From: Pandoraea fibrosis
Lineage (GTDB): Bacteria > Pseudomonadota > Gammaproteobacteria > Burkholderiales > Burkholderiaceae
Direction: 5' to 3'
Assembly: GCF_000807775.2 (NCBI RefSeq)
Contig: NZ_CP047385.1
Span: 1,054,001 to 1,118,000, forward strand
DNA length: 64,000 bases
Shown here: piece by piece, positions 19,227 through 43,359 of the stretch
Position numbering within the stretch: the first letter of the stretch is position 1
Layout: every line of letters begins with the position of its first letter
Notes under the pieces: model-generated
What the model saw: only the letters and a program-made list of their open reading frames with translations
What the model was told of the DNA's origin: nothing
Database searches by the model: none
Position numbers and translations under genes: made by a program

Positions 19227-20912
19227 ATGCGTTTGATGAAATCGAACCGGCCGTGGCTGCGCTGGGCGGCAGTGTGCGCAGTCACGTTGGGGGGAACCGT
19301 TCATGGCGTTGCGATGGCTCAGGAAGCCAACGCCGCTCGGTCGGACAACGCGCCTGCGGTCAAGCCGCAGGCAGGCGCAGCAGAATTGGCGCCAGCGAAG
19401 GAAAAGTCTGCCGAAGCGCAGAAGCCAGTCAATATCAACGAGTACGTTGTGCGCGGCAATACCGTGCTCGACGTGCGCACAATCGAAAAGGCGGTCACAC
19501 CGTATCTCGGGCCGAACCGCACGCTCGCCGACATCGAAGCGGCACGCGATGCCTTGCTCGCGGCCTATCAGGCCAAGGGCTACCAGTCGGTGTACGTGGA
19601 TCTGCCGGAGCAACAGGTCACCGGCGGCATCGTGTATCTGAAGGTGAGCGAGACCAAGCTGGGACGTCTGCGTGTGGTCGGCTCGGAATACCACTCGCCG
19701 CGCGAGGTGCGCGATCGCGTGCCGTCGCTGGCCGAGGGCAAGGTGCCGGACTTCAACGCCGCCCAGGCGGAACTCACGGCCCTGAACCGTACCGGCGAGC
19801 AACAGGTAGTGCCGCTCGTCAAGCAAGGCGCCGTGCCCGGCACGATGGACGTCGATCTCAAGGTCGAGGACACCAACCCGTGGCGGGCCAGCCTCAGCCT
19901 GAACAACGACCGCAGCGCCGATACGAAGCCGCTGCGCATGCTCGCCTCGGTGGGCTACGACAACCTGTGGCAACTCGGCCATCGCGTGTCGATGAGCTTC
20001 TTCGGCGCGCCGCAAGACTTCAGCCAGAGCAAGGTCTGGTCGGGATCGTATGTGGCGCCGTTGGGCGCTTCGCCGTGGACCCTCGAACTCAATGGCTATC
20101 AATCGGACAGCAACGTCGCCACCACCGGCGGTACCACGGTGCTCGGCAAGGGCCACGCGATCGGCCTGAAGACGACGTACACGCTGCCGGATACCGGTGC
20201 CTGGTACCACGCCTTCAGTGTGGGCGTGGACTTCAAGGACAACACGGAAACCACGCGCTTCGGCACCGCCGGCGATGTGGTGCCGCTCAAGTACGCACCG
20301 ATCACGCTCGGTTACAGCGGCTTCTATCAGGACGAAGACCTGAGCGCCGGGCTGAATACGTCGATCGTCTCGGGCATGTCGAGTTTCCTTGGTTATGGCA
20401 GCAGTCCTGCCCAGTTCGATGCGAAGCGCTACAAGGCCTCGCCGAGCTTCATGGTGCTGCGCGCCGATGCGAACGGGACTTACACGTTCAGCGGCGGCTG
20501 GCAACTTTCGGCGCGCGTGGCCACGCAGATGACCGATTCGCCCCTGATCTCGAACGAACAACTGGCAGGTGGCGGCATGAACTCGGTGCGCGGCTACCTC
20601 TCGGCCGAGGCGACGGGCGACTACGGCGTGGTGGGTTCCATCGAATGGCGCACGCCACCGATCCCGCTGCTGGGACCGGTCGTCTCGAACTGGCGCGCCT
20701 ACGCGTTCTTCGATGGCGCGCGACTGGGGCTGCGCGACGCGTTGCCCGAGCAGACGTCGCGGTACTCGCTGGCGTCGGTCGGCGTGGGCTCGTCGCTGCG
20801 GCTGACCTCGCACGTGACGGGCCGCGTCGATGCCGCGTATCCGCTGACCAACGGGCCGCGCACGGAGCGCTACAAGCCGCGACTGAACTTCAGCGTCACG
20901 GCAACTTATTGA
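19227..20912 (+). CDS. Two-partner secretion outer-membrane transporter (TpsB, ShlB/FhaC family)
   Basis: A 561-aa outer-membrane protein. A signal peptide ends near A-M-A-Q at residue 32. Residues about 68-145 form a POTRA domain (I-N-E-Y-V-V-R-G-N-T-V-L, then G-Y-x-S-V-Y-V), followed by a second POTRA-like part and a 16-stranded barrel. V-R-G-Y at 454-457 in the sixth-loop region is the conserved VRGY/F tetrad of the Omp85/TpsB superfamily, and the chain ends in an aromatic residue (Tyr) as barrel proteins do. It should export the giant TpsA protein encoded at the far end of this locus. The position of the partner, about 9 kb downstream, is unusual because TpsA and TpsB genes are normally adjacent. 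It starts the ExbB-ExbD-TonB gene set. Confidence 0.93.
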   Translation: MRLMKSNRPWLRWAAVCAVTLGGTVHGVAMAQEANAARSDNAPAVKPQAGAAELAPAKEKSAEAQKPVNINEYVVRGNTVLDVRTIEKAVTPYLGPNRTLADIEAARDALLAAYQAKGYQSVYVDLPEQQVTGGIVYLKVSETKLGRLRVVGSEYHSPREVRDRVPSLAEGKVPDFNAAQAELTALNRTGEQQVVPLVKQGAVPGTMDVDLKVEDTNPWRASLSLNNDRSADTKPLRMLASVGYDNLWQLGHRVSMSFFGAPQDFSQSKVWSGSYVAPLGASPWTLELNGYQSDSNVATTGGTTVLGKGHAIGLKTTYTLPDTGAWYHAFSVGVDFKDNTETTRFGTAGDVVPLKYAPITLGYSGFYQDEDLSAGLNTSIVSGMSSFLGYGSSPAQFDAKRYKASPSFMVLRADANGTYTFSGGWQLSARVATQMTDSPLISNEQLAGGGMNSVRGYLSAEATGDYGVVGSIEWRTPPIPLLGPVVSNWRAYAFFDGARLGLRDALPEQTSRYSLASVGVGSSLRLTSHVTGRVDAAYPLTNGPRTERYKPRLNFSVTATY

Positions 20913-21037
20913 GCGGATGGCGCGACCTGCCGGCGACCCGAAAACGATCCTTCCGAATTTCACGACACAACATTCACGACCTGATGCCCGATGCGCCAAT
21001 TCAACGCATCGGGCGGCATAAACGGAGAAATACAGCC

Positions 21038-22810
21038 ATGCGACGCATTCTTCCATTCCTGCTTGCGCTGATCGGCACGCTGATGCCGGTGCTCGCGCAC
21101 GCCTGGTGGCAACCGGATTGGGCGTACCGCAAGCCGATCACCATCGATGTCGGCCCGCAAGGCGGCAACATCGCGGGCGACGCCGGCCGTGTGCCGATGC
21201 TGCTGCGCTTGCATACGGGTAACTTCAGCTTCGAAGGCGTGAACGAGACCGGGGCCGATCTGCGCTTCGTGGCCGCCGACGACAAGACCGTTCTCAATCA
21301 CCAGATCGAGCAATTCGATCCGGTGCTGGGCATTGCGCTCGTGTGGGTCGATGTGCCCGCCGTGAGCGCAGGCGCCAAGCAACAGGTCTGGATGTACTAC
21401 GGCAACCGTAAGGCACCTGCGGCCGGCAACGGCCAGCGCGTGTTCGACCCGGATTACACCGCCGTGTATCACTTTGGCGAATCGAATGTGCCGGCACGCG
21501 ACACGACCGCTTACGGCAACAACAGTCAGAACCCGGTCGTCACGCTTGACGGCGCGATCATCGGCAAGGGGGCGCAAGTGGGCGCTTCGCCGATCGTGTT
21601 GCCGGCCTCGCCGTCGCTCGCGCTCGCCGCAGGCAGCCCGTTCACGTTCTCGGCCTGGGTGCGCCCGGAGAAGCTGGGCGCGAACGAAGCGATTTACGTG
21701 CGCCGCGACGGCGCCAACGATCTCGTGATCGGCGTCGATCAGGGGGTGCCGTTCGTGCAGGTGGGCGCTCAGCGCAGCCAGCCGGGTCAACCGATTCAGG
21801 CCGGTCAGTGGTCGCATCTGGCAGTCACGGCAGATGGCAAGTCGGTCACGCTTTACGTCGGCGGTCACGCGGCCACGACGCTCGCGCTCGCACTGCCCGC
21901 CCTGAACTCGCCGACGATCATCGGCGGCGACGCCGATGGCGCCACCGGTGGCCTCGCCCGCTTCTCGGGGGCTGTGGACGAAGTGCATCTCTCGAAGGTC
22001 GCGCGCAGCGCCGCACTGCTGCAAACGGACGCCGTCTCGCAAGGTGCCGAATCGCGTCTGATCGCCTTCGGTCCAGACGAGCAGCAAGCCGGCAAGAGCC
22101 ACTTCGGTTTCATCCTCGCGGCCATGCCGGTCGACGCCTGGGTAGTGGTCTGTGTGCTGGGCCTGATGGCGTTGGTCTCGTGGATCATCATGATCACGAA
22201 AGGCCGTAGCTACGCTGCAAAGGCGCGCGCCAACAGTGCCTTCATGACGCAATTTCGCGAAGCCTCGGGCGCACCGCTCGACCAGATTGCGCGCACGAAT
22301 CGCGTGCCGGAGGACGTGCGCGACCAATCGCCGCTGTGGCGACTGTACGAGGTTGCGCTCGGCGAATTGCATCGCCGTCACGAACTGGGCTACGACACGA
22401 GCGCGGTCTCGGACGCGACCATCAGCGCCATTCGCGCGTCGATGGACGGTGCGATGGTGCGCGAAGTCGAAGACATGAGCAAACGCATGAACTGGCTGTC
22501 GACGTCGATTGAAGGGGCGCCGTATGTCGGTCTGTTCGGCACCGTGATCGGGATCATGCTGGTGTTCGTCGTGGCGGCCATGGCGGGCGCGGTGGACATC
22601 AACTCGGTAGCACCGGGCATGGCCGCTGCACTGCTGTGTACGGCTGCCGGTCTCGGCGTGGCGATTCCCGCACTGTTCGGCTACAACTGGCTGGTGTCGC
22701 GCTCGGATGCGCTCTCCGCCGACATGGCCGTGTTCGTCGACGAGTTCACGACCCGCCTTGCCGAAGAGCAGGGCGAAGGCCGCCGTCAGCCCGTGCTGCA
22801 ACGCGCCTGA
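21038..22810 (+). CDS. ExbB-type proton channel fused to periplasmic DUF2341/LamG-like domains
   Basis: A 590-aa fusion with a start at ATG 21038 (GGAGAA upstream). A signal peptide (1-22, A-H-A boundary) is followed by a DUF2341-like module (about 23-135, with W-V-D-V-P and W-M-Y-Y-G-N) and a concanavalin/LamG-like beta-sandwich (about 145-325, with F-T-F-S-A-W-V-R-P and W-S-H-L-A-V-T). The membrane part begins near 357; the second segment carries the MotA/TolQ/ExbB motif G-A-P-Y-V-G-L-F-G-T-V-I-G-I (about 493-508) and the third lies at about 527-555. The protein thus joins a likely ligand- or glycan-binding periplasmic head to the proton channel that energises TonB. ExbD follows after 12 bp and TonB after that, so a dedicated motor is encoded here. 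Confidence 0.92.
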   Translation: MRRILPFLLALIGTLMPVLAHAWWQPDWAYRKPITIDVGPQGGNIAGDAGRVPMLLRLHTGNFSFEGVNETGADLRFVAADDKTVLNHQIEQFDPVLGIALVWVDVPAVSAGAKQQVWMYYGNRKAPAAGNGQRVFDPDYTAVYHFGESNVPARDTTAYGNNSQNPVVTLDGAIIGKGAQVGASPIVLPASPSLALAAGSPFTFSAWVRPEKLGANEAIYVRRDGANDLVIGVDQGVPFVQVGAQRSQPGQPIQAGQWSHLAVTADGKSVTLYVGGHAATTLALALPALNSPTIIGGDADGATGGLARFSGAVDEVHLSKVARSAALLQTDAVSQGAESRLIAFGPDEQQAGKSHFGFILAAMPVDAWVVVCVLGLMALVSWIIMITKGRSYAAKARANSAFMTQFREASGAPLDQIARTNRVPEDVRDQSPLWRLYEVALGELHRRHELGYDTSAVSDATISAIRASMDGAMVREVEDMSKRMNWLSTSIEGAPYVGLFGTVIGIMLVFVVAAMAGAVDINSVAPGMAAALLCTAAGLGVAIPALFGYNWLVSRSDALSADMAVFVDEFTTRLAEEQGEGRRQPVLQRA

Positions 22811-22822
22811 CGAGGACGAATC

Positions 22823-23233
22823 ATGGCAAACGCAATGCGATTCGCGGCGAAGAAGCGCGCAGGTGGCATCAACATCACGCCGTTCGTCGACGTGCTGCTG
22901 GTGGTGCTGGTGATCTTCATTCTCACGAGTAACGCCAGTATTCCCGGCATCAAGGTCGATCTCCCGAAGGCCAGCTCGTCGGTGGCGCTCGAAAAACCGA
23001 AGACGAAGGCGATCACGGTCGATAACACCGGGCAGGTGTTTCTCGATGCCTATCCGGTGACGCTGACCGAGCTTGAGGATCGCTTGCGCACGGAAAAGGC
23101 GGTCACACCCGACTTCCCGGTGATCGTGCGCGGCGACGCGCAGGTGCAGTACGCCAAGGTTGTCGAAGTGCTCGACCTGCTGCGCCGGATCGATCTCAAC
23201 CAGGTCGGCCTCGTGACCGGCAAGCCGCAGTAA
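22823..23233 (+). CDS. exbD: ExbD-family protein of the two-partner secretion locus
   Basis: A 136-aa single-span protein. Residues 16-36 read I-N-I-T-P-F-V-D-V-L-L-V-V-L-V-I-F with the proton-path Asp23, then a periplasmic domain of about 90 residues. It lies 12 bp after the ExbB fusion and 10 bp before the TonB gene. It is clearly different in sequence from the two ExbD proteins near 4-5 kb, showing that the window encodes two separate TonB motors. Confidence 0.95.
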   Translation: MANAMRFAAKKRAGGINITPFVDVLLVVLVIFILTSNASIPGIKVDLPKASSSVALEKPKTKAITVDNTGQVFLDAYPVTLTELEDRLRTEKAVTPDFPVIVRGDAQVQYAKVVEVLDLLRRIDLNQVGLVTGKPQ

Positions 23234-23243
23234 GGAGCGCAGC

Positions 23244-23969
23244 GTGAAACCTCGCGATTTCGCGTCTAGCCCCGTGCGGCCCGCCGCCAGGCCGCCCAGT
23301 CCGGCGCTCGCGCTGTTGCGCCGGCGTGGCGCACTGATCGTTGGCGGCCTCGTCGTGCTCGGACTGATCGCCCTTTTCTGGCACTTGCTCACGGACAAGG
23401 CCAGCATGCGTCGCGAGGTCAACACCCCGCCGATGCTCATGCTGCCGCCGCCTCCGCCGCCCCCGCCGCCGCAGGAGAAACCGCCCGAGCCGCAGCCGGA
23501 GAAGATCAAGCCGGAAGTCGTCGAGCCGAAGCCGGCCGACCCTGTAGAGCCTCCGAAGGACGACACGCCGCCGAGCCCGACCAAGGATCTGGGCGATGCC
23601 GTGACGATCAATGGCGACGCGCAGGCCGGTACCGATGCGTTCGGCATCGGCGCGGGCAGCGGCGGCGGCATGACCGGTGGCGGGGGGGGATTGGGTAGCC
23701 GCTCGTATAGCGCGTGGCTGGCGAGTTCGCTGCAACAGGCGTTCGGGCGCGATCAACGCACTCGCACGCTGGCCTTCGACGACGTGCGCATCGATCTCTG
23801 GCTCGACGCCGACGGACGCGCCACACGCGCCCAGTTGGTACGGGGCACCGGTAACGCGGCGATTGACGATGCGGTGCTCGCGATGTTGCGCGACTTCCAT
23901 GCAGAAGAGAAGCCGCCTGCATCGTTGCGCTACCCGCTGTCGATGAGCATTCGGGGGCGCAGGCCATGA
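23244..23969 (+). CDS. tonB: TonB-family energy transducer of the two-partner secretion locus
   Basis: A 241-aa protein starting with GTG 23244 (AAGGAG 8 nt upstream). A single membrane anchor (about 30-52) is followed by a periplasmic spacer with a run of nine prolines and many Lys-Pro/Glu-Pro pairs, a glycine-rich link, and a C-terminal TonB domain (about 150-241, S-Y-S-A-W-L-A-S-S-L, D-V-R-I-D-L-W-L-D-A-D-G-R, Y-P-L-S-M-S). It should be driven by the preceding ExbB fusion and ExbD. Its likely outer-membrane target is not a classical receptor, because none is encoded here; the TpsB protein, the porin or the barrel-less STN protein are candidates. Confidence 0.9.
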   Translation: MKPRDFASSPVRPAARPPSPALALLRRRGALIVGGLVVLGLIALFWHLLTDKASMRREVNTPPMLMLPPPPPPPPPQEKPPEPQPEKIKPEVVEPKPADPVEPPKDDTPPSPTKDLGDAVTINGDAQAGTDAFGIGAGSGGGMTGGGGGLGSRSYSAWLASSLQQAFGRDQRTRTLAFDDVRIDLWLDADGRATRAQLVRGTGNAAIDDAVLAMLRDFHAEEKPPASLRYPLSMSIRGRRP

Positions 23970-25828
23970 CGCGCACTACGGCGTCCGACACGCCACACAT
24001 GCCGCAATCAGGACTTCCTTTTTACGCAAAAGTCACACACAAAATGAAAGCACTGGAACGTATGACCGACGCTCTCGCGCACCGACGTGCGCCTCGCGCA
24101 GCGGGCACCGCAGGCGCGGTGGCACTGGCGCTCGCGCTGCTGGGCGCCACGAGCCTGGCCCATGCACAGGCGCAGCCCGCCCCGAAAGATACCGCCATGG
24201 TCAAGCTGATCCGTGGTCTCATCAAGAGCGGCGCGATCGACAAGACCACCGGCGAAGCCCTTCTGGCACAAGCGGAGACGGAAGCCTACGCGGCATCGGC
24301 GGCAGCGCAGAAGGCGGCCGCCGCACCTGCCGTGGCGGCGGCGGCCGTGCCCGGAGGCGAGCCGGGCGACGTGCGCGTCCCGTACATCTCGCAGACCACG
24401 CGCGATCAGATTCGCGACGAGGTGAAGAACGAAGTGATGGCGCAAGCGAAGACGGAGGGCTGGGCTGCGCCGAACGAAACGCCGGAGTGGACCAAGCGCA
24501 TTCACATCGAAGGCGACTTCCGCCTGCGCAACGAATCGCGCTTCTATTCGAGCAGCAACACGAACACGCAGATCGACTGGGCGCAGATCAACAAGGGCAA
24601 TGGTTTCGACGTCAATTCGAACACCAATCTGACGCTCCCGCCGCTGCTCAATACCACGCAGAACCGCACCAACCAGTTCCGTGCCCGTGCACGCTTCGGC
24701 ATCTTCGCTGACGTGTCCGAGCAGGTGAAGGCGGGGGTGAGACTGGCCAGCAGCAACGACGACAGCCCGGTGTCGACCAACTCCACGCTCGGTGGCGGTC
24801 TGAACAAGAAGAGCGTGTGGCTTGACCAGATGTGGATGTCGTATCAGCCGTTCGACTGGATGAAGATCACGGGCGGGCGCTTCACGCCGCCCTATGTCAC
24901 CTCCGACATGCTGTTCTCGAACGACCTGAACATCGACGGCATTGCCGCGCAGTTCAACAAGGTGCTGCCGCAGAACCCGAACGTCGAACTGTTCGGCTCG
25001 CTCGGCTTCATCCCGCTGGAGTACTCGGGCGACAACTCGCCGTCGAACAGCCAGAGCAAGATGTCGAGCCAGACCAAGTGGATGCTCGGCACGCAGTTCG
25101 GTGCGAACTGGAAGCTCGACTCGAAGAACAGCTTGCGCGGCACGCTGGGGTACTTCGACTTCCGCAACATCACGGGTCAACTGTCGTCGCCTTGCGCGCT
25201 GTATGCAGGCCAGACGAGCTGCGATTCGGACTGGTCGCGTCCGGCGTTCATGCAGAAGGGCAACACGCTCATGCTGCTGCGTAACATCGCGCTCAACCCG
25301 CTCGATCCGGCCAATACGGCACAGCCGCAGTACGTCGGCTACGCCTCGAAGTTCCAACTGCTCGACTTGTCGGCCCGTTGGGACACGATGCTGGCCGGGC
25401 GCTATCCGCTGCGCTTCGACGTGAACTACATCCGCAACCTGGCCTACAACGAAGGCGAGATGTGGGCACGTGCGAACGGTGGCATCGTGAACAACTTCGG
25501 CGCGGGCGATGCAACGCGCGCCAACTTCAAGAGCGGTCCGAACGCCTACCTGTTCCAGGCGACCTTTGGCAAGCCGGTCATGGCGTCGCGCGGCGACTGG
25601 AACGTGTTGTTCGGTTACAAGCGTATCGAGCCGGATGCCGTGCCCGATGCCTACAACGACTCGACGTTCCACGGCGGTGGCACGAACGCGAAGGGTTACT
25701 ACATCGGGGCTTCGTATGCCTTCGACAAGAACGCATGGCTCTCGGGCCGCTGGCTTTCGACGAAGGAAGTCTATGGTGCGCCGCTGTCGATCGACACGTT
25801 GCAGATCGAAGTCAACGCGCGATTCTAA
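23966..25828 (+). CDS. Large putative porin
   Basis: A 620-aa protein whose ATG overlaps the tonB stop (ATGA at 23966-23969). A second ATG at 24044 would give 594 aa with a more normal signal peptide; in both cases the hydrophobic stretch ends at A-H-A-Q-A. The mature N-terminus (about 70-150) is alanine-rich and helical, probably a periplasmic coiled segment, and is followed by a beta-barrel of about 470 residues rich in alternating aromatic strands and ending in Phe, typical of outer-membrane insertion. It belongs to the putative porin type seen with ExbB/ExbD gene sets. Co-location with tonB suggests an energised outer-membrane function, which is inferred. Confidence 0.85.
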   Translation: MTRTTASDTPHMPQSGLPFYAKVTHKMKALERMTDALAHRRAPRAAGTAGAVALALALLGATSLAHAQAQPAPKDTAMVKLIRGLIKSGAIDKTTGEALLAQAETEAYAASAAAQKAAAAPAVAAAAVPGGEPGDVRVPYISQTTRDQIRDEVKNEVMAQAKTEGWAAPNETPEWTKRIHIEGDFRLRNESRFYSSSNTNTQIDWAQINKGNGFDVNSNTNLTLPPLLNTTQNRTNQFRARARFGIFADVSEQVKAGVRLASSNDDSPVSTNSTLGGGLNKKSVWLDQMWMSYQPFDWMKITGGRFTPPYVTSDMLFSNDLNIDGIAAQFNKVLPQNPNVELFGSLGFIPLEYSGDNSPSNSQSKMSSQTKWMLGTQFGANWKLDSKNSLRGTLGYFDFRNITGQLSSPCALYAGQTSCDSDWSRPAFMQKGNTLMLLRNIALNPLDPANTAQPQYVGYASKFQLLDLSARWDTMLAGRYPLRFDVNYIRNLAYNEGEMWARANGGIVNNFGAGDATRANFKSGPNAYLFQATFGKPVMASRGDWNVLFGYKRIEPDAVPDAYNDSTFHGGGTNAKGYYIGASYAFDKNAWLSGRWLSTKEVYGAPLSIDTLQIEVNARF

Positions 25829-25838
25829 GGAGGTGGTC

Positions 25839-26597
25839 ATGAGTCAACAGCCCTCGCGCGCGATGAAGCGTCTGGCCTCAGGTGTGGCCGCCGCGGTGCT
25901 GCTCGCCGTGTGCTCCGTCGCCACGGCACAGACGCCGCAGGGCGCGCCGAGTATGGAAGAGCGTCTGCGCACGCAATTGCGCAGCACGACCGAGCAACTC
26001 CAGCAGGCGAAGAACGAACTCGCCGCACTCAAGGCCGGCGGCGCCACCGCCGGCGCACCTGGCAAGGACTCGCCCGAGGCGCTGAAGAAGGCGCTGGACG
26101 AAGCCCAGCGGCAACTTGCCGCGGAGCGTCAGGCGCGCGAGCGTCTGTCGCAGGACGCCCGGGCTTCGCAATCGGAAGTGAAGGCGGTGGCCGACAAGGC
26201 CAACGTGCAGATTGCGCAGTACCGCAATGCCTACGACGAACTGCTCAGGCTCGCGCGTCAGGCCGATGCGCAGCGCAAGCATCTCGCCGACGAGACGGCG
26301 GCGCAGCGAGTCGCGCTCGCGATGTGCAAGGAGAAAAACGATCGCCTCTACGCCGTGGGACAGGAAATCCTGACGGCCTACGAGACGATGGATGTGGCGA
26401 CCGTGGTCGCCGCGCGTCAGCCGTTCGCTACGCAGACCCGCGTGAAGTACGAGCAAATCGCCCAGCAGTACGGCGACAAGCTGTACGAGGGCAAGTTCGA
26501 CGAGCAACAGGCCGCTGCCGCCATCGCTGCAAAGCCTGCCGAAACGGCAGCGTCGTCGGCACCGGCATCGGTTGCAGCACCGGCAGCATCGCAGTAA
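25839..26597 (+). CDS. Exported coiled-coil protein, unknown function
   Basis: A 252-aa protein with a near-perfect AAGGAGG ribosome site before the ATG at 25839. Residues 1-31 form a signal peptide (V-A-T-A-Q boundary). Residues about 38-165 are highly charged, Gln/Ala/Leu-rich heptads, predicted to form a long coiled coil; a single Cys lies in M-C-K-E-K-N near 166. The tail (about 215-252) is Ala/Ser/Pro-rich. It is likely periplasmic or surface-attached and could act as a scaffold for the secretion and TonB machinery. It has no recognisable catalytic motif. It is 10 bp from the porin gene and certainly in the same transcript. Confidence 0.8.
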   Translation: MSQQPSRAMKRLASGVAAAVLLAVCSVATAQTPQGAPSMEERLRTQLRSTTEQLQQAKNELAALKAGGATAGAPGKDSPEALKKALDEAQRQLAAERQARERLSQDARASQSEVKAVADKANVQIAQYRNAYDELLRLARQADAQRKHLADETAAQRVALAMCKEKNDRLYAVGQEILTAYETMDVATVVAARQPFATQTRVKYEQIAQQYGDKLYEGKFDEQQAAAAIAAKPAETAASSAPASVAAPAASQ

Positions 26598-26673: not shown

Positions 26674-27276
26674 ATGAACGAAGAGAACACGACACAACAC
26701 GACAATCACGACGCCGAGCGAGCCGGTGCGCCGACGTCTTCGGGCGCGGCGTCGCCCGCCGACATCGTCACGTTCGTCACGTCCGCTCAGGTGGCAGATG
26801 CCATTCGCGCCGCCGGATGCGCGGTGTCGGTGCAACAAGACGATCTGGTCACGCGCCTGCACAGCGCGAGCCACGGTATCGGCTATCAGGTGCATTGGGG
26901 CAATCAGGCCGGTGCCGACCAGTATCTCAATTTCACGCTGAGCTGTCCGCTGCGCGTGCAGGGCGGCGATTTGCCCGACGGCCTGATCAACGAGTGGCAT
27001 CGTTCGCGCCGCTTCGCCCGTGTGGCGGCGCACGGCGAGTTTCTCGTGCTGGAGATGGACGTCATTGTGGCGGGCGGCGTTTCCCCCGATTTCCTGAATT
27101 TCTCGATGCGACTCTGGGTCGAGATGATGGGACAGTTCTTCCTGCATCTTCGCAACTTCACACAGCAAGGCGCGGGCCAGATCCCGGGGGCCGGGGCATC
27201 GGGCGAAGCCCTTGCTGTTACGCCGGGCGATACGCTCGGGAGCGGCGATTCGCAGGTACCGATGACGCTTAACTAA
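26674..27276 (+). CDS. YbjN-domain protein
   Basis: A 200-aa cytoplasmic protein with no signal peptide. Residues about 30-155 match the YbjN layout (secretion-chaperone-like alpha/beta fold): a first helix (S-A-Q-V-A-D-A-I-R-A-A-G), a beta-sheet with F-T-L-S-C-P-L, then N-E-W-H-R-S-R-R-F-A-R and a closing helix. YbjN proteins are thought to act in signalling or as chaperone-like factors; here it could assist the giant exoprotein before export. It is the last gene before a strong intrinsic terminator. Confidence 0.8.
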   Translation: MNEENTTQHDNHDAERAGAPTSSGAASPADIVTFVTSAQVADAIRAAGCAVSVQQDDLVTRLHSASHGIGYQVHWGNQAGADQYLNFTLSCPLRVQGGDLPDGLINEWHRSRRFARVAAHGEFLVLEMDVIVAGGVSPDFLNFSMRLWVEMMGQFFLHLRNFTQQGAGQIPGAGASGEALAVTPGDTLGSGDSQVPMTLN

Positions 27277-29970: not shown

Positions 29971-29987
29971 CCCGGCGTGTTGGGCTT

Positions 29988-30010
29988 CGTGACGGCTTGA
30001 CCCTGTCACG
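29988..30010. repeat. Inverted repeat after FecR-like gene
   Basis: CGTGAC at 29988-29993 and GTCACG at 30005-30010 form a 6-bp inverted repeat, 17 bp after the anti-sigma stop. It contains CTGTCAC, a good PhoB half-site, but the second half expected 11 bp away is poor. No U-tract follows, so it is not an intrinsic terminator. Confidence 0.35.
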
Positions 30011-30070
30011 AAAGATTCAAATAAATCCTTGCCGATTGGCTCGTGCCGAACGGTCTTAGTCCCGAGAGCG

Positions 30071-36100: not shown

Positions 36101-39100
36101 CCACCGGGTCGATCCTCAGCGCCACCACAGCCGGGTTCACAGGCAACGCCTACAACGTTGTGCTGCGCGGTGGCGCAATGCTGCGCGCAAGCGAAGTGTT
36201 CATCGTCACGATCTCCACCGCCAAGGGCATTACCGTCGAGCAGGGGAGCGGCATCAACACACTCGGCTTCGGCATGCCGATGTGGGATTCCACAATGGGG
36301 TATACCTACACGCCGGGGGCGGCGGGGGTGCTGGCGGTGTCCAATGGCCGGCTCGCGATGCTATCGCCGTTGCCGACCGGCGCACAGGATTCCTTTGGCG
36401 CCGGGTACATCGACCTTGGCGTTTGCGCGTCGCCCGCCGCATGTGCAGGTGAAACGCTGCTGCTGTCCGAAGGCTCGATTGCGGTGGCGACTGACAAGCG
36501 ATTCACGATCACCGATGCCGTGCGCTACGGCACGCGCCAACTGTCGCTCGCGGTCGGTCGGGTCAATGTTGGCGATCAGGCATCGCTGGATTCGCTTGCC
36601 GCTTCCGGGCGTCTGGCGGAAGGACTGACGCTCAACCAGACGGTGCTGTCGCGACTGTTACGCGGCGACCGGGCCTATGGCGCGCCTGCGCTCGAAAGCC
36701 TGTCTCTCATCGCTCGCGATTCGATCAATTTCTACGATTCCGTCGAGCTATCGACCATCGATGCTGCAACCGGAAAATCGAGCATCGATGTGCTCGTGCT
36801 GGGCACGCCGGCCATCTTCGGATACGGCGCGAGCGATGCACTCGCGCGTATTCGCACCGATCGGCTCGTGTGGACCGGCTCGAAGTCACCTGCGGGCGCC
36901 ATCGTCGAGGGCGGGGCAGGCACCGGCAGCGGTCGCTTGTCGCTCGACGCACGGGAGATCGAATTCGGCTTCGGACCGGCCACGCAGCGCGACGTCAATC
37001 ACGATATGAACCGCATGACCGTCGGTTTCTCGACAGTCGAACTCAACGCCAGCGAGCGGGTAACGGCTAACCAGAAGGGCAGCCTGTCCGTCTATCGCTC
37101 ACAGAACGGGTGGAACGACCAGAAGCAGGATTTCGATTACAGCGGCGGTGACATCGTCATCGATACGCCACTGCTCACGGGGGCGGCAGGGTCGGTGAAC
37201 CGTTTCGTCGCGGGCGGCAACGTGTCGGTGACGAACGCGAGTGCTCGCACGAGACCCGTGATCGACAACGGCAAGCTTGTGGCCGCGCTGGGGGCCGAAG
37301 TCGCGCTGAGCGCTGGCGGGGCAGCGAGCGTCGACACGAGCGTCGTGCTGCCGAGCGGCCGCTTGACCGTGGCCGCACAGGCGGATGTGACACTTGGTGA
37401 TGGCGCCCAACTCGATCTGGCCGGACGCAAGCTCGATTTCTTCGACACCAGCAAATACAGCTGGGGCGGCGATATGGTCCTGTCGAGCGCCAACGGCAAC
37501 GTTCGCCAGACCGCCGGGTCGCGCATCGATCTGTCGGCGCTGGAAAACCGGGCCGGCAAGCTCACCGTGACGGCGCTGTCACCGGTCAGCGGCGTCGTAT
37601 CGCTGGCGGGCAAGGTGCTCGGCAGTGCCAGCGGTCGCTACGATGCGGGCGGCACGTGGGTGCCGTTCGCTGCGGGAGGCGTCGACATCCGCGCTCAGCA
37701 CGTCGACGATTTCGGCGGGCTCAATGCTCGTCTGACCGACGGCGGCGTCTTTGGCAGCCGCAGCTTCCAGATCAAGCAGGGCAGTCTTGTCGTTGGCGAC
37801 GAACTCAAGGCGCGTGAGATCACGCTCTCGATCGACGGGGGACGACTTGACGTGCTCGGGCGTGTCGACGCGAGCGGGGCACAAGCGGGCACCATTCGCC
37901 TCTCGGCCCGCGACGGCGTGACGGTCGGTGGCAACGCGGTGCTCGACGCGCACAGCACCACGCTGCGTCTGGACAGTTATGGGCAGCCCATCGAAGCTTC
38001 CAACCGTGCGGTCATCGAGATCAACGGCAATCAGGGACGTGTGGTGCTGGCCGACGGTGCACGGCTCGATGTGCGTGCCGGGACGAACGACGTGAAAGGC
38101 GCACCCCTGTCGGTCGGGACGGTCGAGATCAGCGCAAAGCGTCTGGGCGGTGCGAACGAAGCCCTGGGCAACGACATCGCGATCGATGCGGGCGGTAACG
38201 TCGTGATCGACGGTGCGCGCTCGATCACCGTCAACGGGATGTACCGCGACACCCAGGCACCGGCCGGCACCGATGTTTCCATCGACGGCCGTCCATATCA
38301 GCTCGTCAATCAAGCTTATCTGGACGCGCTTCACGCGCAGAACGAAACGTTCATGTCGAACGCGCTGGCCAATGGCGCGTTGCTCGCGCGGCTGGCCGGA
38401 TTGCGCCGCTATACCGATGCCTTCCATCTGCGCCCGGGTGTCGAGATCGTCAGCGCGACGCCTGACGGCGACATTCACCTGGACGGCGATATCGACATGT
38501 CGCGCTATCGCTACGCGAGCCTGAACCCGAACACGCAGAAGACCGGTGTGTGGGGCAGCGGCGAAGCGGGCGCGCTGACGATTCGCGCCGGGGGAAATCT
38601 GAACGTCTTCGGCAGTCTGACCGACGGGTTCGATACCAGCAAGCTCACGCCGGGTGCGGACAACAAGGGGTGGGTGCTTACCAGCGGAACTGCAGGGTGG
38701 GGCGGCGATGCCGTGATCCCGGTGGGCGGGTTGGTGACGCTCGCCGCCGGCACGGAATTCCCGGCCGATCGCAAGCTTAACTACGACGTTCAGGTGGCGG
38801 CGACGAAGTTGCCTGCCGGCACGCGTCTGCCCGCCAGCATCACACTGAGCGCCGATCTGACGCTGCCGTCGGGCACTGTGCTTGGGGCGGCCGTGCGCGA
38901 TGCGGCGGGCAACGTGGTGTACCCGGCGGGTACGGCGCTGACGTCGGCCCTTACCTTGCGCTCCGGCATGCAGATCGATGCCGGCATGGTGTTGCCTTTG
39001 GACGCGTCTGTGGCAGCGATGCGCTGGCCTGCGGGCGCTGTGATGCCGGTGAACCTCAAGCTCGCCGCCGATGTGTTGCTGCGCAAGGGCGCGATCATTC

Positions 39101-42100
39101 CGGCCGAGACCGACGTCAAGCTGCCGGGAGGCGTGCTGTTCGTCAACGTGCGCCCGGCGGATGCCGACGGTAATCAGGGGCAGATTCATGCGCTTGCGCC
39201 GATGCTTCAGGCGGGTTCGGCGTCGTGGTCGCTGCGGCTGGTCGCTGGCGCCGATACGTCGGCTGCCGATCCGCGTGCGTTGCAGCCGTTGAAGGCCGAT
39301 GGACATCTGACGCTTGCAGACACGCACTACGGCATGGGCGTGCTCAATGTGCTCAAGCCGGGGACCGGCACGCTTGGCGTTTATCGCTGGGGGCCGGATG
39401 CTGCGGAGTTGGGCGCCGTCGAGGGCGAGATTGTGACGGAGGAAGACCTGATCAACTGGGGCATTTCCACGCCCGCGGACATCGACATGTGGAACGGGTA
39501 CTACGATGCGTTCCGACTCGTGACGCCCGGCATTCCCGCCGAGTACGAGTTGAAGACGCAACCCGCTCGCGAACCTGTCTTCAGCGTGGTGCGTACCGGC
39601 ACGGGCGATCTCGACATGCTCGCGGCGGGTAACTTCACGATGAGTTCGCCGTTTGGGGTTTATACGGCGGGTACGCAGGCGCGTGATGTGACGAGCGCCT
39701 ATAACCTCGCACGGGCCACGATCAAGAATACGTCCGTGCTGGGGGCGGAGGGGGCGGCCTTCGAGTCATACGTCAGCGGTGCGCAGAGTCTCTACAGCGC
39801 GTGGTATCCGGAGCATGGCGGCAATCTGTTCGTGCGCGCTCAGGGCGATATTCGTGGCGACACCGTTGGCACACGTGACGGCTATCAACGCTCGACAAGT
39901 TTTGGTGTTCCGCGAGCGGTTCCGGATGCCGGCAATCTGGGCAATTGGCTGTGGCGCCAGGGATCGGGCTCCGTGATTGCGCAAGGGGGCGTGCCGAGCG
40001 CGTGGTGGGTCAATTTCGGGACGTATGTGGTCGGCAAGGAAGACGGCTACGCGGCATTCGAGAAGGTACCGTTCCTGGTGGGCTTTGCCGGACTTGGCAC
40101 GCTCGGCGGCGGCAATGTGGTGCTCGAAGCCGGCGCGAACGCTGGCATGCTGGAGTCCCGCATGGGGGCAGGCAATAGTTACGGCCCAAGCGCGCTCGCT
40201 CGCAGCGAGGGCTTGAATGTCGCGGTAGGCAGCACCGGTCGGGTGTCGGCGGACGGTTCGCAGATTCAATTGACGGGCGGCGGCGATCTCGACGTGCGGA
40301 TCGGCGGCGGTCTGAATCCTGTACGAGAAGTTCGTGCCATCACGCAGCCTGGTAGCTTGATCAAGGACTCGGCAGAGTGGCGCAATGGCAACCTTGGGCT
40401 GAACGGCACGTTCACGAACCTGCGCGGTGCCACGCGCATCGAAGCGGGGGCGCTGGGCGGTGTCGACGCGCTGTTCGGCGCCACCGATTTGCGCGAGACC
40501 CGGGCACGCGATGTGTTCACCCCCCAGATCGGCATGGCGACCGGGGGACCCACGCTGGTACTCGGCGACTCGACGATTCGCATCGACACACGTGGCGACC
40601 TGGTGATAGGCGGCTATGGCGATGCAACGCGCGCACAACAGCGCACCAACGGCACGCCGTTCACCGCGTCGGGCGTCAACTATAGTGGCGAAGGATTCAG
40701 TTGGTTCACGCTGTGGACGCCTTCCACTGCCATCGACTTGTTCAGTGCGGGCGGAAATCTCGCACCACTCACCGCGATGGCCGACCCGCGGGCAGGGGCG
40801 AACTACGCGTCGACCGACGGCCGTTTCGTGCTGCCTGCGACACTGCGCGCGGTCGCTGCTAGCGGCAATATTTACAACGGCTTTTCGGCAACTCGTATTC
40901 TCGATGCGGAGTCGAAGGTGACGATCGGCGACACGCCGGCGTTGCTGGCACCGGAGCCCGTCAGTTCGTTGTTCAGAGTGGCGCCCGACGGTGGTGCGCT
41001 CGAGATGATGGCCGGCCAATCCCTGTTCGGATCCGGGTTCCCCATCAGCCGTTCCGCGGCCGATCCCACGGCGTTACCTACGCCGCAAAACCCTGCCTTC
41101 ATGGGGGGCGTGCGCAATGCATGGTTCGGCCGTGCTTACCTCACGAACGTGCGACAGGATGCCATCGCACCGCAACTGCTGTTCTATTACAGCCCGGATT
41201 CCGCGACACGGTTCCCGATGTTCAGCCTGACCCCGGCGACCGTCTCCGGCTATGACTTCACCGGCATCGCGCCGGCCCGTTTCTATGCACTCACGGGCGA
41301 TATCGTCGGACTGCAAACGGGCGGCATTGACTACCGCGGCAGCATAACGCCCGTCGCAGGCACGCAGCCGACCTGGTACGAAGGCAATGGCGCCGTGGCG
41401 ATTCGGGCCGGGCGAGACATCGTCAACTCGGGAACGCCGCTCGGCACCTATTTGAGCACCAACGCTGACTTCGCCGGCTGGACCACCACGCCCGATTTCA
41501 CTGATCCGGTCAACAATCCGGGACGCCCGATGAGGGTCGCGTCGACGACGATGCGCGGCAACCTGATCGTGCAGAACTCGGCGGACGATGTCTCCGTGGT
41601 GTCGGCGGGTCGGGACATTCTTTACAGCACGTTCTACGTGGCGGGCCCGGGTTTGCTGGAAATCACGGCGGGGCGCAACGTCTTCATGGGCGACAAGGCC
41701 GAGTTGCGCAGTCTCGGCGCGCTCGCCAACGTCAAACCCGGCGACCGGAGCAACGGGGCTGCGATTGCGGTAGCGGCGGGTGTCGGACCCCGAGGGCTCG
41801 ACGGCATCGACTTCAAGGCGTTCGCCGCCCGGTATCTCGATGCAGCGAATCTGGCAGACGGTGGACGGCCGCTCGCCGATCAGCCGGGCAAGGCAGTCGT
41901 TGTGTACGGCGGAGAACTCACGCTTTCCGGATGGTTAGGTCAGGAGTTCGGCTATCGCGGAAATGCGGCAGGCGCCGATGCGTTCCTCGTCACTAAGCAG
42001 GCAGAACTCGACGCGGCGAGTCAGGCTGCCGGTGGCGCAGGCGGCATCGCCAAACGGGATCTGCGCAATGAGTTCGCGCAGCAAAGCCAGTTGTATCTCG

Positions 42101-43359
42101 TGAATTGGCTCGCGACACGCTTCGGCGGCCGCAACGCGCTCGGGCGACATTTCGATGCGGCGTCGATGGATGCCCGTCAGTTCTTCGACGCCTTGCCGCC
42201 CGAGCACCAGCGCGCGTATCTGCGCGATGTGTACTTCGCGGAACTGCGCGCTTCGGGGCGTGAGTACAACGATGCGAGCGGCCCGCGCGCGGGTAGTTAT
42301 CTGCGGGGGCGCGAGGCCATCGCCACGCTCTTCCCCGAGCAGGACGAGAGCGGTGCGTCGCGTCAGTATGACGGCAGTCTCACGATGTACAGCAGTGCGC
42401 TCTACTATCTGCAAAACCTGGATCGCCAATCGACGACACGTCCGGTGCCTGGTGTGAAGTATTTGACGCAGGCGCAATGGGTCGCGCGTGGCAGTCCTGC
42501 GTATGATGTTCCTCACTATGAAGTTCAAGACGCGGGCATCCATACCGACTTCGGCGGCGGGGTGAGCATCATGACGCCGGGCGGACGGACGCTCGTTGGC
42601 GTGGACGGTGGTTTTGTGCCGGCTGAAGGCTCCGGTGTGCTCACGCAGGGGCGCGGCAACATCGACATGTATGCGCGAGATAGCATTCTGCTCGGTCAGA
42701 GTCGTGTATTCACCACGTTCGGCGGCAATATTCTCGCGTGGTCGGCGCAGGGCGACATCAACGCGGGCCGTGGATCGAAATCGACGGTGGTCTACACACC
42801 GCAGCGTCGTGTCTATGACGACCTCGGACTTGTAGCGCTCTCGCCGACAACTCCAAATACGGGCGCTGGCATTGCCACGTTGAACCCGATCCCTGAGATT
42901 CCGCCGGGCGACATCGATCTGATTGCGCCGCTTGGCACGATCGACGCGGGGGAGGCGGGGATTCGGGTGTCCGGTAACGTGAACATCGCGGCGCTGCGGG
43001 TGATGAACGCCGAAAACATTCAAGTGCAGGGCAAGTCCGTTGGTATTCCGACGATTGCGGCCGTAAATGTGGGCGCGCTCACGAATGCCAGTGCGACGGC
43101 GGCGCAGGCGGCCGCGGCGGCACAGGACGCGGTGGCTCGCGATCGGGCGTCGGCGCGGCAGGGCCAGCCGTCGATTTTCTCTGTTCGCATGCTCGATACG
43201 GGGACGTCGAACGATGCGACCGGCAAGCCGCGTGCCGATAGCACTCGGATGTTCCGCTACGATCCTGCGTCGCCCGTACAGGTGCTCGGCCAGATGAACC
43301 TGAGTGAGGCGCAGTTGCAGGCGCTCACGCCCACGGAGCGGAAGAATCTGATGCGCTGA
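30172..43359 (+). CDS. Giant filamentous haemagglutinin-like TpsA exoprotein (DUF3739-type)
   Basis: About 4395 aa from ATG 30172 (ATG 30178 is equally possible; a GTG at 30043 is open but lacks support). Residues 1-45 form an extended basic signal peptide with an A-H-A boundary, as in TpsA proteins. The secretion (TPS) domain follows: A-I-L-N-W-E-T-F-N-V-G near 180 and N-R-N-G-I at 229-233, the NPNGI-like motif recognised by TpsB. The rest is a long beta-helix of Gly/Ser/Asn/Asp-rich repeats (A-G-G-x-I, D-A-G-A-x-L patterns), with a distinct Leu-Pro-Ala-Gly repeat near 2850-2990. The last 400 residues have the DUF3739-like end, with G-V-S-I-M-T-P-G-G-R, G-N-I-D-M-Y-A-R-D-S and an Ala-rich tail. 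No toxin or VENN-type C-terminus is seen. It should be exported by the TpsB at 19227 and act at the cell surface as an adhesin or similar fibre. Confidence 0.93.
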   Translation: MTMHKRVVSLSTRTRASTRLLRIRPLAQAVAVFAASSAMISAAHAQQAFSNAWFAARGAAQSTAAQTGRLPNGMPVSSLQNPGEQQQRATQAVQNSIANLATAAQGIAAMQAAQNAARQAAAATPETIPDGLAEGGLKVDTNSLTAGWINANKKIAQDRDAAGNTKVAIEQTGEKAILNWETFNVGRRTTVEFVQQPGWAVLNRVNDPQARPSQIQGQIKADGTVMIVNRNGIQFSGTAQVDTRNLVAAAVGMTNDQFNRGIYGAAVSGATVPTFANDLQVSGSSVSHTGASADVTVDAGARLNTRRPQSVTEGGGYVLLLGREAHNRGTIVTPSGQTVIAGGDAFVIRRGVGTDGNVNSSTRGNEVEPKLLPGSTAGRVSNSGLIQAALGDITLAGRQIEQSGVLVSTTSVNARGTIHLTASGDSNALVRVAPGALNAIVLDPSGDAALDAQRTTLLADAAKAAESGLYNRRDQSLVQITSSGDVLFDSDSLTLATGGQINVLATRRAMAMERAKLDVSGAVGVKVAMSANNVEVNVQGNEQRDAPSNRDTHLLNNLTVYIDRRYLVRVPAGTQGYTTDRWYTPGGLLEVSGYLNTASHSIGEWAAQGGTVQLGGAEVVTRAGSLINLAGGTLDVQTGMIRQSWLRGVDGQLYRVDNAPGDLRYLGTYRGFEAEHARWGKSTTETFATLFIAPGQRLENGYTVGRDAGRLIISAPSAVLEGDVDTAAYQGPRQTQAADRGLYDGYLQSPLAAPRAGQLIVGKLTPYYDDTTLTLRDSPSAIARTINVGDVQALAADIAQGSALDTQRAGKISLDAGWLNRQQFGGVKLLATDALTLTRDIRVADGGDVGLHATRVDIDANVTARGGSIAAGNIVQRVLQATNGAWGDVPITDPALIAGGQYVKVARGVTLDTRGLWSRADDDEAGIHGMPYLNGGNVIFSTTGDVRVAQGSTIDVSSGAVRLAGGTVRGGKGGNVSLLASQYDTTGKSAGELHVDGELRGYGVSGGGTLKLDTGNGVVIGAPTSPGSSPDTSLGVSLFSTGFSRYDVTGQLGLTIADGAHLDVVMPVLNVDGQAARDTLSGSDPSGVLSVLLAPVWQSDAARGTITQRSGADLALSAGSQLKRGQLSVGDGAQIEVDPGRNITLTSNGQMTVLGTLRSASGTVSLLPGLFGTGDAQGRPEGTFTPTSIWLGGNAVIDVAARPMVAKDASGAISGKVAAGGTIQIGAKYVAGATQVEAADAFVIVRPGARLDASGTAADVDVPGQGRTHVASNGGVISLASARGLYLDGDMKAASGGAGAAGGTLNVVLETLAYGMVDRTTLRGSNVDDSVRVAHEMIVAQTQGGSALSDTLRPGALGGGLALGNARIGVDRVTAGGFDNLSLLANGMMDFDGNVNLSLGQSLRLTASSFGLAANAAPGAQVRFAAPYVQLAGTTRQQSDNFLMPNPVSGSRNNGQGAGALGVPLLDDQAKFEINGSLIDVSGRMQFGTAGTIETNAGTPVSVLRNAFGNVALRSTGDLRLLDKTEVYSPGDMTLAAVQIYPTQNASAMIVVGQRSYPSDCCVRLNQLDPTHVLTIERVGDTLAVQPYSLFGSLTLKAGQIRQGGVLRAPMGTITFGAPMETEANGILTLLPGSVTSVSANGLVMPYGGSLDGLSYLNAAVDARYSLAGGGPSVVVYSHALAVDPGAVIDLSGGGEIRGAAFLTGRGGSTDARLAPLMQVVQTGTKGSFRLPSLSSNPVYAIVPGVQPAYAPVVSENGAGAPLMGQQITIGAGVPGLPAGTYTLLPSTFALLPGAYRVELQTQSPAQAGLAPVAMRNGSLTLPAQLSVSNTSLRNATPTQAVLTSADVLRTYSQYNEMSYADFARATSERVGAPRALIEADAKRLDLYFLSDVYRGKIADTSALRFQGSANVAPAKGGYGASLLVTAPSTGNFEILGAGATPRQDDKSLISLRADDLNAIGAARMGIGGLPVVAADATGSILSATTAGFTGNAYNVVLRGGAMLRASEVFIVTISTAKGITVEQGSGINTLGFGMPMWDSTMGYTYTPGAAGVLAVSNGRLAMLSPLPTGAQDSFGAGYIDLGVCASPAACAGETLLLSEGSIAVATDKRFTITDAVRYGTRQLSLAVGRVNVGDQASLDSLAASGRLAEGLTLNQTVLSRLLRGDRAYGAPALESLSLIARDSINFYDSVELSTIDAATGKSSIDVLVLGTPAIFGYGASDALARIRTDRLVWTGSKSPAGAIVEGGAGTGSGRLSLDAREIEFGFGPATQRDVNHDMNRMTVGFSTVELNASERVTANQKGSLSVYRSQNGWNDQKQDFDYSGGDIVIDTPLLTGAAGSVNRFVAGGNVSVTNASARTRPVIDNGKLVAALGAEVALSAGGAASVDTSVVLPSGRLTVAAQADVTLGDGAQLDLAGRKLDFFDTSKYSWGGDMVLSSANGNVRQTAGSRIDLSALENRAGKLTVTALSPVSGVVSLAGKVLGSASGRYDAGGTWVPFAAGGVDIRAQHVDDFGGLNARLTDGGVFGSRSFQIKQGSLVVGDELKAREITLSIDGGRLDVLGRVDASGAQAGTIRLSARDGVTVGGNAVLDAHSTTLRLDSYGQPIEASNRAVIEINGNQGRVVLADGARLDVRAGTNDVKGAPLSVGTVEISAKRLGGANEALGNDIAIDAGGNVVIDGARSITVNGMYRDTQAPAGTDVSIDGRPYQLVNQAYLDALHAQNETFMSNALANGALLARLAGLRRYTDAFHLRPGVEIVSATPDGDIHLDGDIDMSRYRYASLNPNTQKTGVWGSGEAGALTIRAGGNLNVFGSLTDGFDTSKLTPGADNKGWVLTSGTAGWGGDAVIPVGGLVTLAAGTEFPADRKLNYDVQVAATKLPAGTRLPASITLSADLTLPSGTVLGAAVRDAAGNVVYPAGTALTSALTLRSGMQIDAGMVLPLDASVAAMRWPAGAVMPVNLKLAADVLLRKGAIIPAETDVKLPGGVLFVNVRPADADGNQGQIHALAPMLQAGSASWSLRLVAGADTSAADPRALQPLKADGHLTLADTHYGMGVLNVLKPGTGTLGVYRWGPDAAELGAVEGEIVTEEDLINWGISTPADIDMWNGYYDAFRLVTPGIPAEYELKTQPAREPVFSVVRTGTGDLDMLAAGNFTMSSPFGVYTAGTQARDVTSAYNLARATIKNTSVLGAEGAAFESYVSGAQSLYSAWYPEHGGNLFVRAQGDIRGDTVGTRDGYQRSTSFGVPRAVPDAGNLGNWLWRQGSGSVIAQGGVPSAWWVNFGTYVVGKEDGYAAFEKVPFLVGFAGLGTLGGGNVVLEAGANAGMLESRMGAGNSYGPSALARSEGLNVAVGSTGRVSADGSQIQLTGGGDLDVRIGGGLNPVREVRAITQPGSLIKDSAEWRNGNLGLNGTFTNLRGATRIEAGALGGVDALFGATDLRETRARDVFTPQIGMATGGPTLVLGDSTIRIDTRGDLVIGGYGDATRAQQRTNGTPFTASGVNYSGEGFSWFTLWTPSTAIDLFSAGGNLAPLTAMADPRAGANYASTDGRFVLPATLRAVAASGNIYNGFSATRILDAESKVTIGDTPALLAPEPVSSLFRVAPDGGALEMMAGQSLFGSGFPISRSAADPTALPTPQNPAFMGGVRNAWFGRAYLTNVRQDAIAPQLLFYYSPDSATRFPMFSLTPATVSGYDFTGIAPARFYALTGDIVGLQTGGIDYRGSITPVAGTQPTWYEGNGAVAIRAGRDIVNSGTPLGTYLSTNADFAGWTTTPDFTDPVNNPGRPMRVASTTMRGNLIVQNSADDVSVVSAGRDILYSTFYVAGPGLLEITAGRNVFMGDKAELRSLGALANVKPGDRSNGAAIAVAAGVGPRGLDGIDFKAFAARYLDAANLADGGRPLADQPGKAVVVYGGELTLSGWLGQEFGYRGNAAGADAFLVTKQAELDAASQAAGGAGGIAKRDLRNEFAQQSQLYLVNWLATRFGGRNALGRHFDAASMDARQFFDALPPEHQRAYLRDVYFAELRASGREYNDASGPRAGSYLRGREAIATLFPEQDESGASRQYDGSLTMYSSALYYLQNLDRQSTTRPVPGVKYLTQAQWVARGSPAYDVPHYEVQDAGIHTDFGGGVSIMTPGGRTLVGVDGGFVPAEGSGVLTQGRGNIDMYARDSILLGQSRVFTTFGGNILAWSAQGDINAGRGSKSTVVYTPQRRVYDDLGLVALSPTTPNTGAGIATLNPIPEIPPGDIDLIAPLGTIDAGEAGIRVSGNVNIAALRVMNAENIQVQGKSVGIPTIAAVNVGALTNASATAAQAAAAAQDAVARDRASARQGQPSIFSVRMLDTGTSNDATGKPRADSTRMFRYDPASPVQVLGQMNLSEAQLQALTPTERKNLMR
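38731..39140 (+). repeat. Leu-Pro-x-Gly degenerate repeat inside the giant exoprotein
   Basis: This stretch (residues about 2854-2990) encodes about seven degenerate units of the form L-P-A-G-T-x-L-P, L-P-S-G-T-V-L, Y-P-A-G-T-A-L, L-R-S-G-M-Q-I, W-P-A-G-A-V-M-P, L-R-K-G-A-I-I-P. It differs from the Gly/Asn-rich beta-helix repeats before and after it and probably forms an inserted domain or a stiff spacer. Confidence 0.6.

Follow-up and report, generated by a model that had tools for sequence, protein, structure and literature searches.

A Pandoraea version of the PUMA3/Pdt two-partner secretion locus, with a TolQRA-like motor gene set that accompanies DUF3739-type TpsA

An eleven-gene two-partner secretion locus

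Within positions 19227-43359 of the 64,000-nucleotide stretch of the Pandoraea fibrosis genome analysed here (the window), eleven genes lie on the plus strand in the order tpsB, ExbB fusion, exbD, TonB-like, porin, coiled-coil, ybjN, STN, ECF sigma, fecR and tpsA. An earlier note on this DNA had proposed such a same-direction set; Pfam and NCBIfam searches returned all the genes it named in the order it gave, and its coordinates were correct. The first gene, tpsB (19227..20912), encodes the outer-membrane transporter of two-partner secretion (TPS) and matches Pfam POTRA_2 and ShlB. It is followed by the exbB fusion (21038..22810), which combines a signal peptide recognised by eye with Pfam DUF2341, Laminin_G_3 and MotA_ExbB, by an exbD/tolR-like gene (22823..23233; Pfam ExbD) and by a TonB/TolA-like gene (23244..23969). 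The product of the latter has no Pfam match at 1e-3; its C-terminal domain matches NCBIfam tonB_Cterm (E 4.8e-7), and a transmembrane helix and a proline-rich stretch were recognised by eye. Next come a Porin_5 porin (24044..25828; Pfam E 7e-186), a periplasmic coiled-coil protein with a signal peptide by eye and no Pfam family at 1e-3 (25839..26597) and a YbjN-family protein assigned by Pfam (26674..27276). A VreA-like STN protein (27645..28355; Pfam STN), a VreI-like ECF sigma factor (28356..28871; Pfam Sigma70_r2/r4, NCBIfam sigma70-ECF 1.1e-18) and a VreR-like, FecR-type anti-sigma factor (28948..29970; Pfam FecR and DUF4880) precede the last gene, tpsA (30172..43359, ~13 kb). Its giant secreted product, 4438 aa when counted from GTG, has a TPS domain (PF05860, 4e-20), a beta-helix, DUF3739 (8e-39), a C-terminal helix and a strand motif, PSIFSVRML, near its end. 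With POTRA and barrel in TpsB and the TPS domain in TpsA, the pair has the make-up of two-partner (type Vb) secretion.

For two genes a start downstream of the longest frame is more likely. An ATG at 30172 or 30178 is preferred over GTG 30043 for tpsA because a −10-like element (30052-30059) sits inside the longest frame, and a start at about 27645 over 27450 for the STN gene because a PhoB-box-like element at 27470 does so there. By Pfam, the 11 cluster proteins include no TonB-dependent receptor and no TolB or Pal partner, and no hxc T2SS, phdA or PpiC (PA0699) gene was found among the 26 window ORFs scanned, each of at least 100 aa and within the first 43.4 kb. Elsewhere in the window, ABC transporter genes adjoin a proline racemase family gene (8980-13847), with no connection to the cluster seen.

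The locus is a rearranged member of the PUMA3/Pdt system

In Pseudomonas aeruginosa, vreAIR is described as controlling pdtA and the operon phdA-pdtB-exbB2-exbD2-tonB4-PA0696 to PA0701, whose PA0696 product is a putative porin, with PA0698 in the YbjN family and PA0699 of PpiC type; a 2009 paper reports that PUMA3 homologues, including those of Burkholderia vietnamiensis and Janthinobacterium, are found together with homologues of TPS, ExbBD and PA0696, and exbB2-exbD2-tonB4 was in 2020 still presented as a putative, uncharacterised system (PMC2729926, PMC7035377, PMC4971064). The Pandoraea locus has the counterparts TpsB, ExbB, ExbD, TonB, porin, a gene in the PA0697 position (the coiled-coil protein), YbjN in that of PA0698, a VreA with STN and TonB/TolA-like end, sigma factor and FecR. 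At the corresponding genes it also has predicted promoter elements, both PhoB-box-like and alternative, among them a PhoB box predicted from the sequence at the vreA-like promoter. The order pdtB-exbB2-exbD2-tonB4-PA0696-PA0697-PA0698 recurs as well, the comparison being with the published description rather than the P. aeruginosa sequence. The locus differs in that the vre trio sits between ybjN and tpsA, and in that the 11-gene run showed no hxc or PpiC gene. None of the 120 matches listed of 1682 homologues, many of them nameless, was named as a P. aeruginosa protein, so orthology to PA0674-PA0701 rests on the published descriptions. Given the match in gene content and the like predicted promoter elements at equivalent genes, the earlier designation "PUMA3/Pdt-like but rearranged" is well supported: the locus is a rearranged member of the PUMA3/Pdt system in its Pandoraea version. 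Among the literature matches listed, titles and abstract openings showed no work on what a motor of the exbB2/exbD2/tonB4 kind does, and no paper naming DUF3739 was found among those searched; the gene set itself is known from work on PUMA3.

The cluster motor resembles TolQRA more than ExbBD-TonB

The channel domain of the ExbB fusion scores higher with NCBIfam TolQ (138.8 bits) than with ExbB (74.7 bits), and the same holds against PDB chains (TolQ 82 bits, ExbB 51 bits); the ExbD protein reaches 98.7 bits as TolR versus 70.6 as ExbD_2. The C-terminal profile of the cluster TonB, a gene whose layout is conserved among relatives, gives 25.7 bits on the TolA of its own genome, which lies elsewhere and was assigned by eye between TolR-like and TolB-like frames, and 10-13 bits on the genome's two canonical TonBs. 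On these scores the cluster motor appears closer to TolQRA than to ExbBD-TonB. This qualifies the "own TonB motor" of the earlier note. Set beside Tol-Pal, the cluster is alike in its channel subunits and C-terminal domain, which score closest to TolQ, TolR and TolA, and differs in having no TolB/Pal, in its linkage to TPS and in the DUF2341-LamG part of its channel protein, which is predicted to be periplasmic.

These likenesses could mean that the motor does envelope work, with Tol-like tethering required because the cell exports so large a fibre during phosphate stress, and that it belongs to the stress regulon as an accessory, making no direct contact with TpsA or TpsB. The higher scores of the ExbB and ExbD domains as TolQ and TolR agree with this, as does the TonB-like domain lying nearest to the genome's own TolA among the three TonB/TolA proteins compared. 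As described below, however, the motor co-occurs almost perfectly with a single type of TpsA but not with TPS systems of other kinds, which points to a specific partner, and we hold the envelope account to be distinctly unlikely.

TtpC of Vibrio is reportedly an ExbB relative with a periplasmic extension, presumably of a different family from that of the cluster ExbB fusion. The Vibrio TonB2 system, in which TtpC is a fourth protein (PMC6957404), serves iron transport, not TPS. DUF2341 itself appears in a 2025 paper only as an additional domain, left unexplained, in proteins of ExbB type (PMC12505986). A Rosetta-stone fusion joining the ExbB protein to a larger protein was sought and not found; the long DUF2341 frames of genomes G101, G180 and G278 are LamG-like and channel-less. 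A canonical ExbB-family gene and a TonB gene (PF03544) lie on the minus strand at 4841-6361 of the window, 13 kb upstream of the cluster, and this TonB scores far from the cluster TonB.

DUF3739-type TpsA and the fusion-type motor occur together

The best 80 of 107 loci recovered with the ExbB fusion were mostly from Burkholderiales, with some from Xanthomonadales and one from Steroidobacter; the seven nearest relatives of the fusion are from Pandoraea (95-98% identity). Where the flank sufficed, tpsB is the immediate neighbour of the fusion in 69 of 76 loci, and the order fusion-exbD-tonB-porin-coiled-coil is kept in 66 of 72 (65 of 72 when extended with ybjN), the coiled-coil gene being present in 67 of the 72 and YbjN in 66. 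With the order and the adjacency kept to this extent, the grouping is not due to chance. Because these loci had been picked via the fusion, the converse was tested too, starting from DUF3739 in samples of 143 class genomes and 200 order genomes (the source genome, G000, and G107 are in both).

DUF3739 is present in 10 and DUF2341 in 13 of the class genomes, and in 23 and 25, respectively, of the order genomes. The ExbB fusion was found with DUF3739 in 9/10 class and 22/23 order genomes, and without it in 1/133 (G104, on an 8.6-kb contig) and 1/177 (G193, on a 3.5-kb contig), where a genome with no DUF2341 match was scored as lacking the fusion, so that motors without DUF2341 would escape these counts. 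In both DUF3739 genomes that lack the fusion, G101 and G276, DUF3739 lies close to a contig end (46 and 398 bases). The Fisher p values of 1.9e-12 (class) and 4.7e-27 (order) are only a guide, since the genomes are related and two of them are in both samples. Genomes with DUF2341 and no DUF3739 are either truncated systems (G104, G193) or have no ExbB fusion (G180, G278, G067, G128). The TPS domain as such occurs in 51 of the 143 class genomes, and of the 42 among them that have no DUF3739 a single one (G104) has the fusion.

Of the 31 DUF3739 genomes in the two samples, 21 have tpsA immediately before the ExbB fusion without an intervening tpsB, and tpsB stands before tpsA in all three of these in which the other end of tpsA was read (G107, G021 and G119). 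Two genomes (G091, G279) have tpsB between tpsA and the fusion; in the remainder the arrangement is split or gapped, runs off a contig end or, as in the window, is rearranged. Adjacency and co-occurrence thus place the tie between the DUF3739-type TpsA and the fusion-type motor, and we take these sequence comparisons as evidence, new here, that the two belong together. Type V secretion, and with it the plain TPS pathway, is described as needing no energy input (review, PMC5422565). A TPS subtype that is hardly ever found without its own proton-channel motor either challenges this general rule or reveals a job for such motors besides uptake.

The genes might also be no more than a co-regulated neighbourhood whose members function separately, since YbjN and the sigma trio vary among loci, gene order differs by lineage and another DUF3739 TpsA, the second of the source genome, has no motor nearby. 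The core linkage is kept across genera despite the differing gene orders, however, and we regard this explanation as very improbable. The second TpsA (C1:4680575-4692895, minus strand; L082, L083) is of ~4100 aa and has STN-sigma-FecR genes of its own; no tpsB or motor lies within the 30 kb read and the STN-type promoter composite described below was not found there. It may be served by the TpsB of the window. A homologue of a CAAX-type (Rce1-like) membrane protease lies near nine of the clusters (L100, L089, L106, L111, L107, L102, L129, L110 and L126), directly after the coiled-coil gene in eight and ~3 kb further on in L110, and T2SS E-type and F-type genes lie near three and four loci, respectively. 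These flanking genes gave no sign of a common function.

The STN-sigma-FecR trio

The VreA-like protein has an STN domain, a C-terminal domain close to that of the cluster TonB (hhalign probability 98.1) and no beta-barrel, which is the make-up of VreA, and the ECF sigma and FecR-type anti-sigma genes adjoin its gene as in PUMA3. In comparisons for which the sets were defined by gene position, profiles of the STN C-terminal domain and of the cluster TonB each detect the other set (101/104 and 32/32), and the STN C-terminal domain scores a median of 33 bits with cluster TonBs, 3-7 with the canonical TonBs of its own genome and 13 with TolA. The very low E-values of a first iterative STN search were discarded, as TonB proteins had entered the STN profile. 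From this likeness, the VreA-like protein and the cluster TonB may have a common docking partner. P. aeruginosa VreA has been modelled as an STN domain with a TolA/TonB-like C-terminal domain, is described as mostly soluble and is reported to be dispensable for sigma activation and virulence (PMC2729926, PMC7035377, PMC4971064).

Among the 69 loci with 9.9 kb of downstream sequence, the search of this neighbourhood found the trio complete in 31, partial in one and absent from 37. The earlier note had taken it as a test that homologous clusters keep these genes together; this holds for tpsA, tpsB and the motor, but only those 31 loci have the complete sigma trio alongside the cluster.

Predicted promoters of the tpsB-motor, STN and tpsA genes

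A predicted promoter of the tpsB-motor operon (19021..19068, plus strand) combines an inverted PhoB-box-like element (19021-19036) with an ECF-type −10, CGTCTA (19063-19068). The corresponding composite, TGAA..(7)..TGAC followed by CGTCTA/T, gave 61 matches in 4.48 Mb on both strands, 60 of them upstream of tpsB in 58 of 90 loci; with the spacing left free over 11 values, 59 of the 60 are 47 nt long and one is 48. It is missing from 32 of the 90 loci, some of them truncated and some, those of Janthinobacterium, counted as misses because they have TGTCTA instead. If CGTCTA is the −10, the box lies at about −54 to −39, similar in position to the pho box published for P. aeruginosa, in which mutations were placed in the repeats at −56 to −50 and −45 to −40 (PMC2729926, PMC7035377, PMC4971064).

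For the STN-sigma-FecR genes, a predicted PhoB-σ70 promoter (27470..27503, plus strand) has its box at 27470-27487 and its −10 at 27498-27503; the arrangement of two direct repeats, 10 bp and a −10 occurs in 21 of 32 regions, including that of the window, with 0.0 expected from mononucleotide shuffling. The predicted tpsA promoter (30003..30059, plus strand) consists of a PhoB-box-like element (30003-30020), a −35 region (30029-30037) and the −10 GGTCTTAG (30052-30059), and by eye the box with GGTCTTAG or GGTCTAG is conserved in Pandoraea and Cupriavidus loci. The patterns for the promoters, and that for the TpsA tail described below, were composed after viewing the sequences, and near-identical Pandoraea loci were counted singly, so these figures are a measure of conservation and as tests are neither blind nor independent.

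One hand-chosen locus per lineage was also scored against a plain PhoB consensus (14 positions, 40 shuffles), with p <= 0.05 in 11/35 tpsB, 7/14 STN and 4/14 tpsA regions. In the window the score was significant for STN only (p 0.65 and 0.35 for the TPS genes), and in 24 of the 35 tpsB regions, that of the window included, it failed to tell the box from shuffled sequence. This score is indecisive, so the promoter case rests on the fixed spacing across genera. The promoter elements suggest control of the STN gene by PhoB and of tpsB and tpsA by PhoB together with the sigma factor, and suggest that the phosphate-starvation control known from P. aeruginosa is common to many Burkholderiales.

The porin and a possible role in uptake

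An AF2 model of the porin (34 sequences, pLDDT 74) shows a barrel with N-terminal helices, in which DSSP secondary structure and fold matches give no sign of a plug. The best PDB matches by Foldseek are OmpM1, OprB and OmpF, with a query-normalised TM of ~0.4. As modelled, the porin looks like an unplugged general-porin barrel, and the plugged receptor that is the usual client of such a motor therefore seems to be absent from the locus. Full-length Porin_5 (E < 1e-100) was found in 10/10 DUF3739 class genomes and in 1/133 others (G104); eight further class genomes have weak partial matches.

This constant company, together with the predicted phosphate-starvation control, would suit an uptake system in which TpsA catches a polymer, phosphorus-rich or other, outside the cell and the motor powers its import through the porin. 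HxuA-HxuB-HxuC offers a precedent of a kind, a haem system in which TPS is joined to a TonB-dependent function and the TpsA feeds a TonB-dependent receptor; it differs in that HxuC is itself a TonB-dependent transporter, of which the cluster has none, and in that the published hxu operon comprises three genes, none of them for a motor (PMC5422565). The lack of such a receptor among the cluster genes and the unplugged appearance of the porin model speak against import, which we think unlikely.

The TpsA tail and a model for the motor

The TpsA tails of relatives share a strand motif, typically PS[IVLF][FLI][TS]V.V[LI]GFG, which may resemble TonB boxes. The pattern finds it in 65 of 74 tails, that of the window included, versus 0.12 expected in shuffles, and misses it in nine. 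Where tpsA adjoins exbB the motif usually begins 12-39 residues before the C-terminus; in the TpsA of the window ~54 residues follow it. In an AF2 model of the last 288 aa (33 sequences, mean pLDDT 68) the beta-helix is followed by a 31-residue helix, of low to moderate confidence, and then by a disordered tail that contains the motif.

The TPS pair CdrA-CdrB is not known to include motor genes. It is alike in that the adhesin CdrA is removed from the surface by periplasmic LapG, which cleaves it at a site that the authors speculate to be near the C-terminus (PMC4694147). In one genome (G156, L103:5491-8174) LapG- and LapD-type genes lie directly beside the DUF3739 cluster, which by analogy suggests a retained fibre C-terminus. 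A general LapG rule was rejected: homologues occur in 2/129 loci, one of them the query itself, none turned up in those Pandoraea loci that were searched, and sites of AAG type are scattered.

The reading that we favour, with a probability of roughly 45% for the model as a whole, is that the motor works on the fibre at its periplasmic end. Phosphate starvation, acting through PhoB, would turn on the VreA-like, sigma and anti-sigma genes, and PhoB and the released sigma factor would then turn on the tpsB-motor genes and tpsA, as the promoter footprints suggest. TpsB would export TpsA as a long surface fibre whose tail would remain periplasmic. The TolQRA-like motor, with the predicted periplasmic, lectin-like domain on its ExbB-type subunit, would act on the fibre end, TpsB or the porin, and in doing so hold, pull or free the fibre. 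The STN protein, which has a TonB-like end on a domain of FecR-binding type, could thereby sense whether the TonB docking site is occupied.

Linkage, the co-occurrence of Porin_5, the promoters, the likeness between STN protein and TonB, the tail motif and model, the plug-less porin and the LapG/LapD case argue for this fibre-end model. Against it stand the working of plain TPS without energy input and the dispensability of VreA in P. aeruginosa; the tails without the motif, its distance from the end in the window and the rarity of LapG; and the weak plain PhoB score, the loci without the tpsB composite and the second TpsA with neither motor nor tpsB nearby. Gene content, linkage, domain homology, tail motif and promoter elements can be read off the DNA, whereas PhoB and sigma control, the periplasmic position of the tail, the target of the motor and the sensing step are inferred. 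As the earlier note proposed, proton-motive force may be coupled to how the fibre is secreted, released or sensed. An extension of the model, which seems to us doubtful, would make DUF3739 fibres a separate energised class of TPS, in which a TolQRA-like motor takes hold of the C-terminal strand on the periplasmic side, so that the fibre is held, pulled back or let go at the expense of proton-motive force, and the VreA-like protein reports engagement of the end to the sigma switch. Through the co-occurrence, the tail motif and the promoter layout, the vague gene list exbB2-exbD2-tonB4 is turned into testable predictions.

Beyond tpsA, the window contains tRNA-Ile and tRNA-Ala genes (45551-45815), a pair typical of the spacer of rRNA operons, and more tRNA genes at 50275-52022; the GC content falls in this region.
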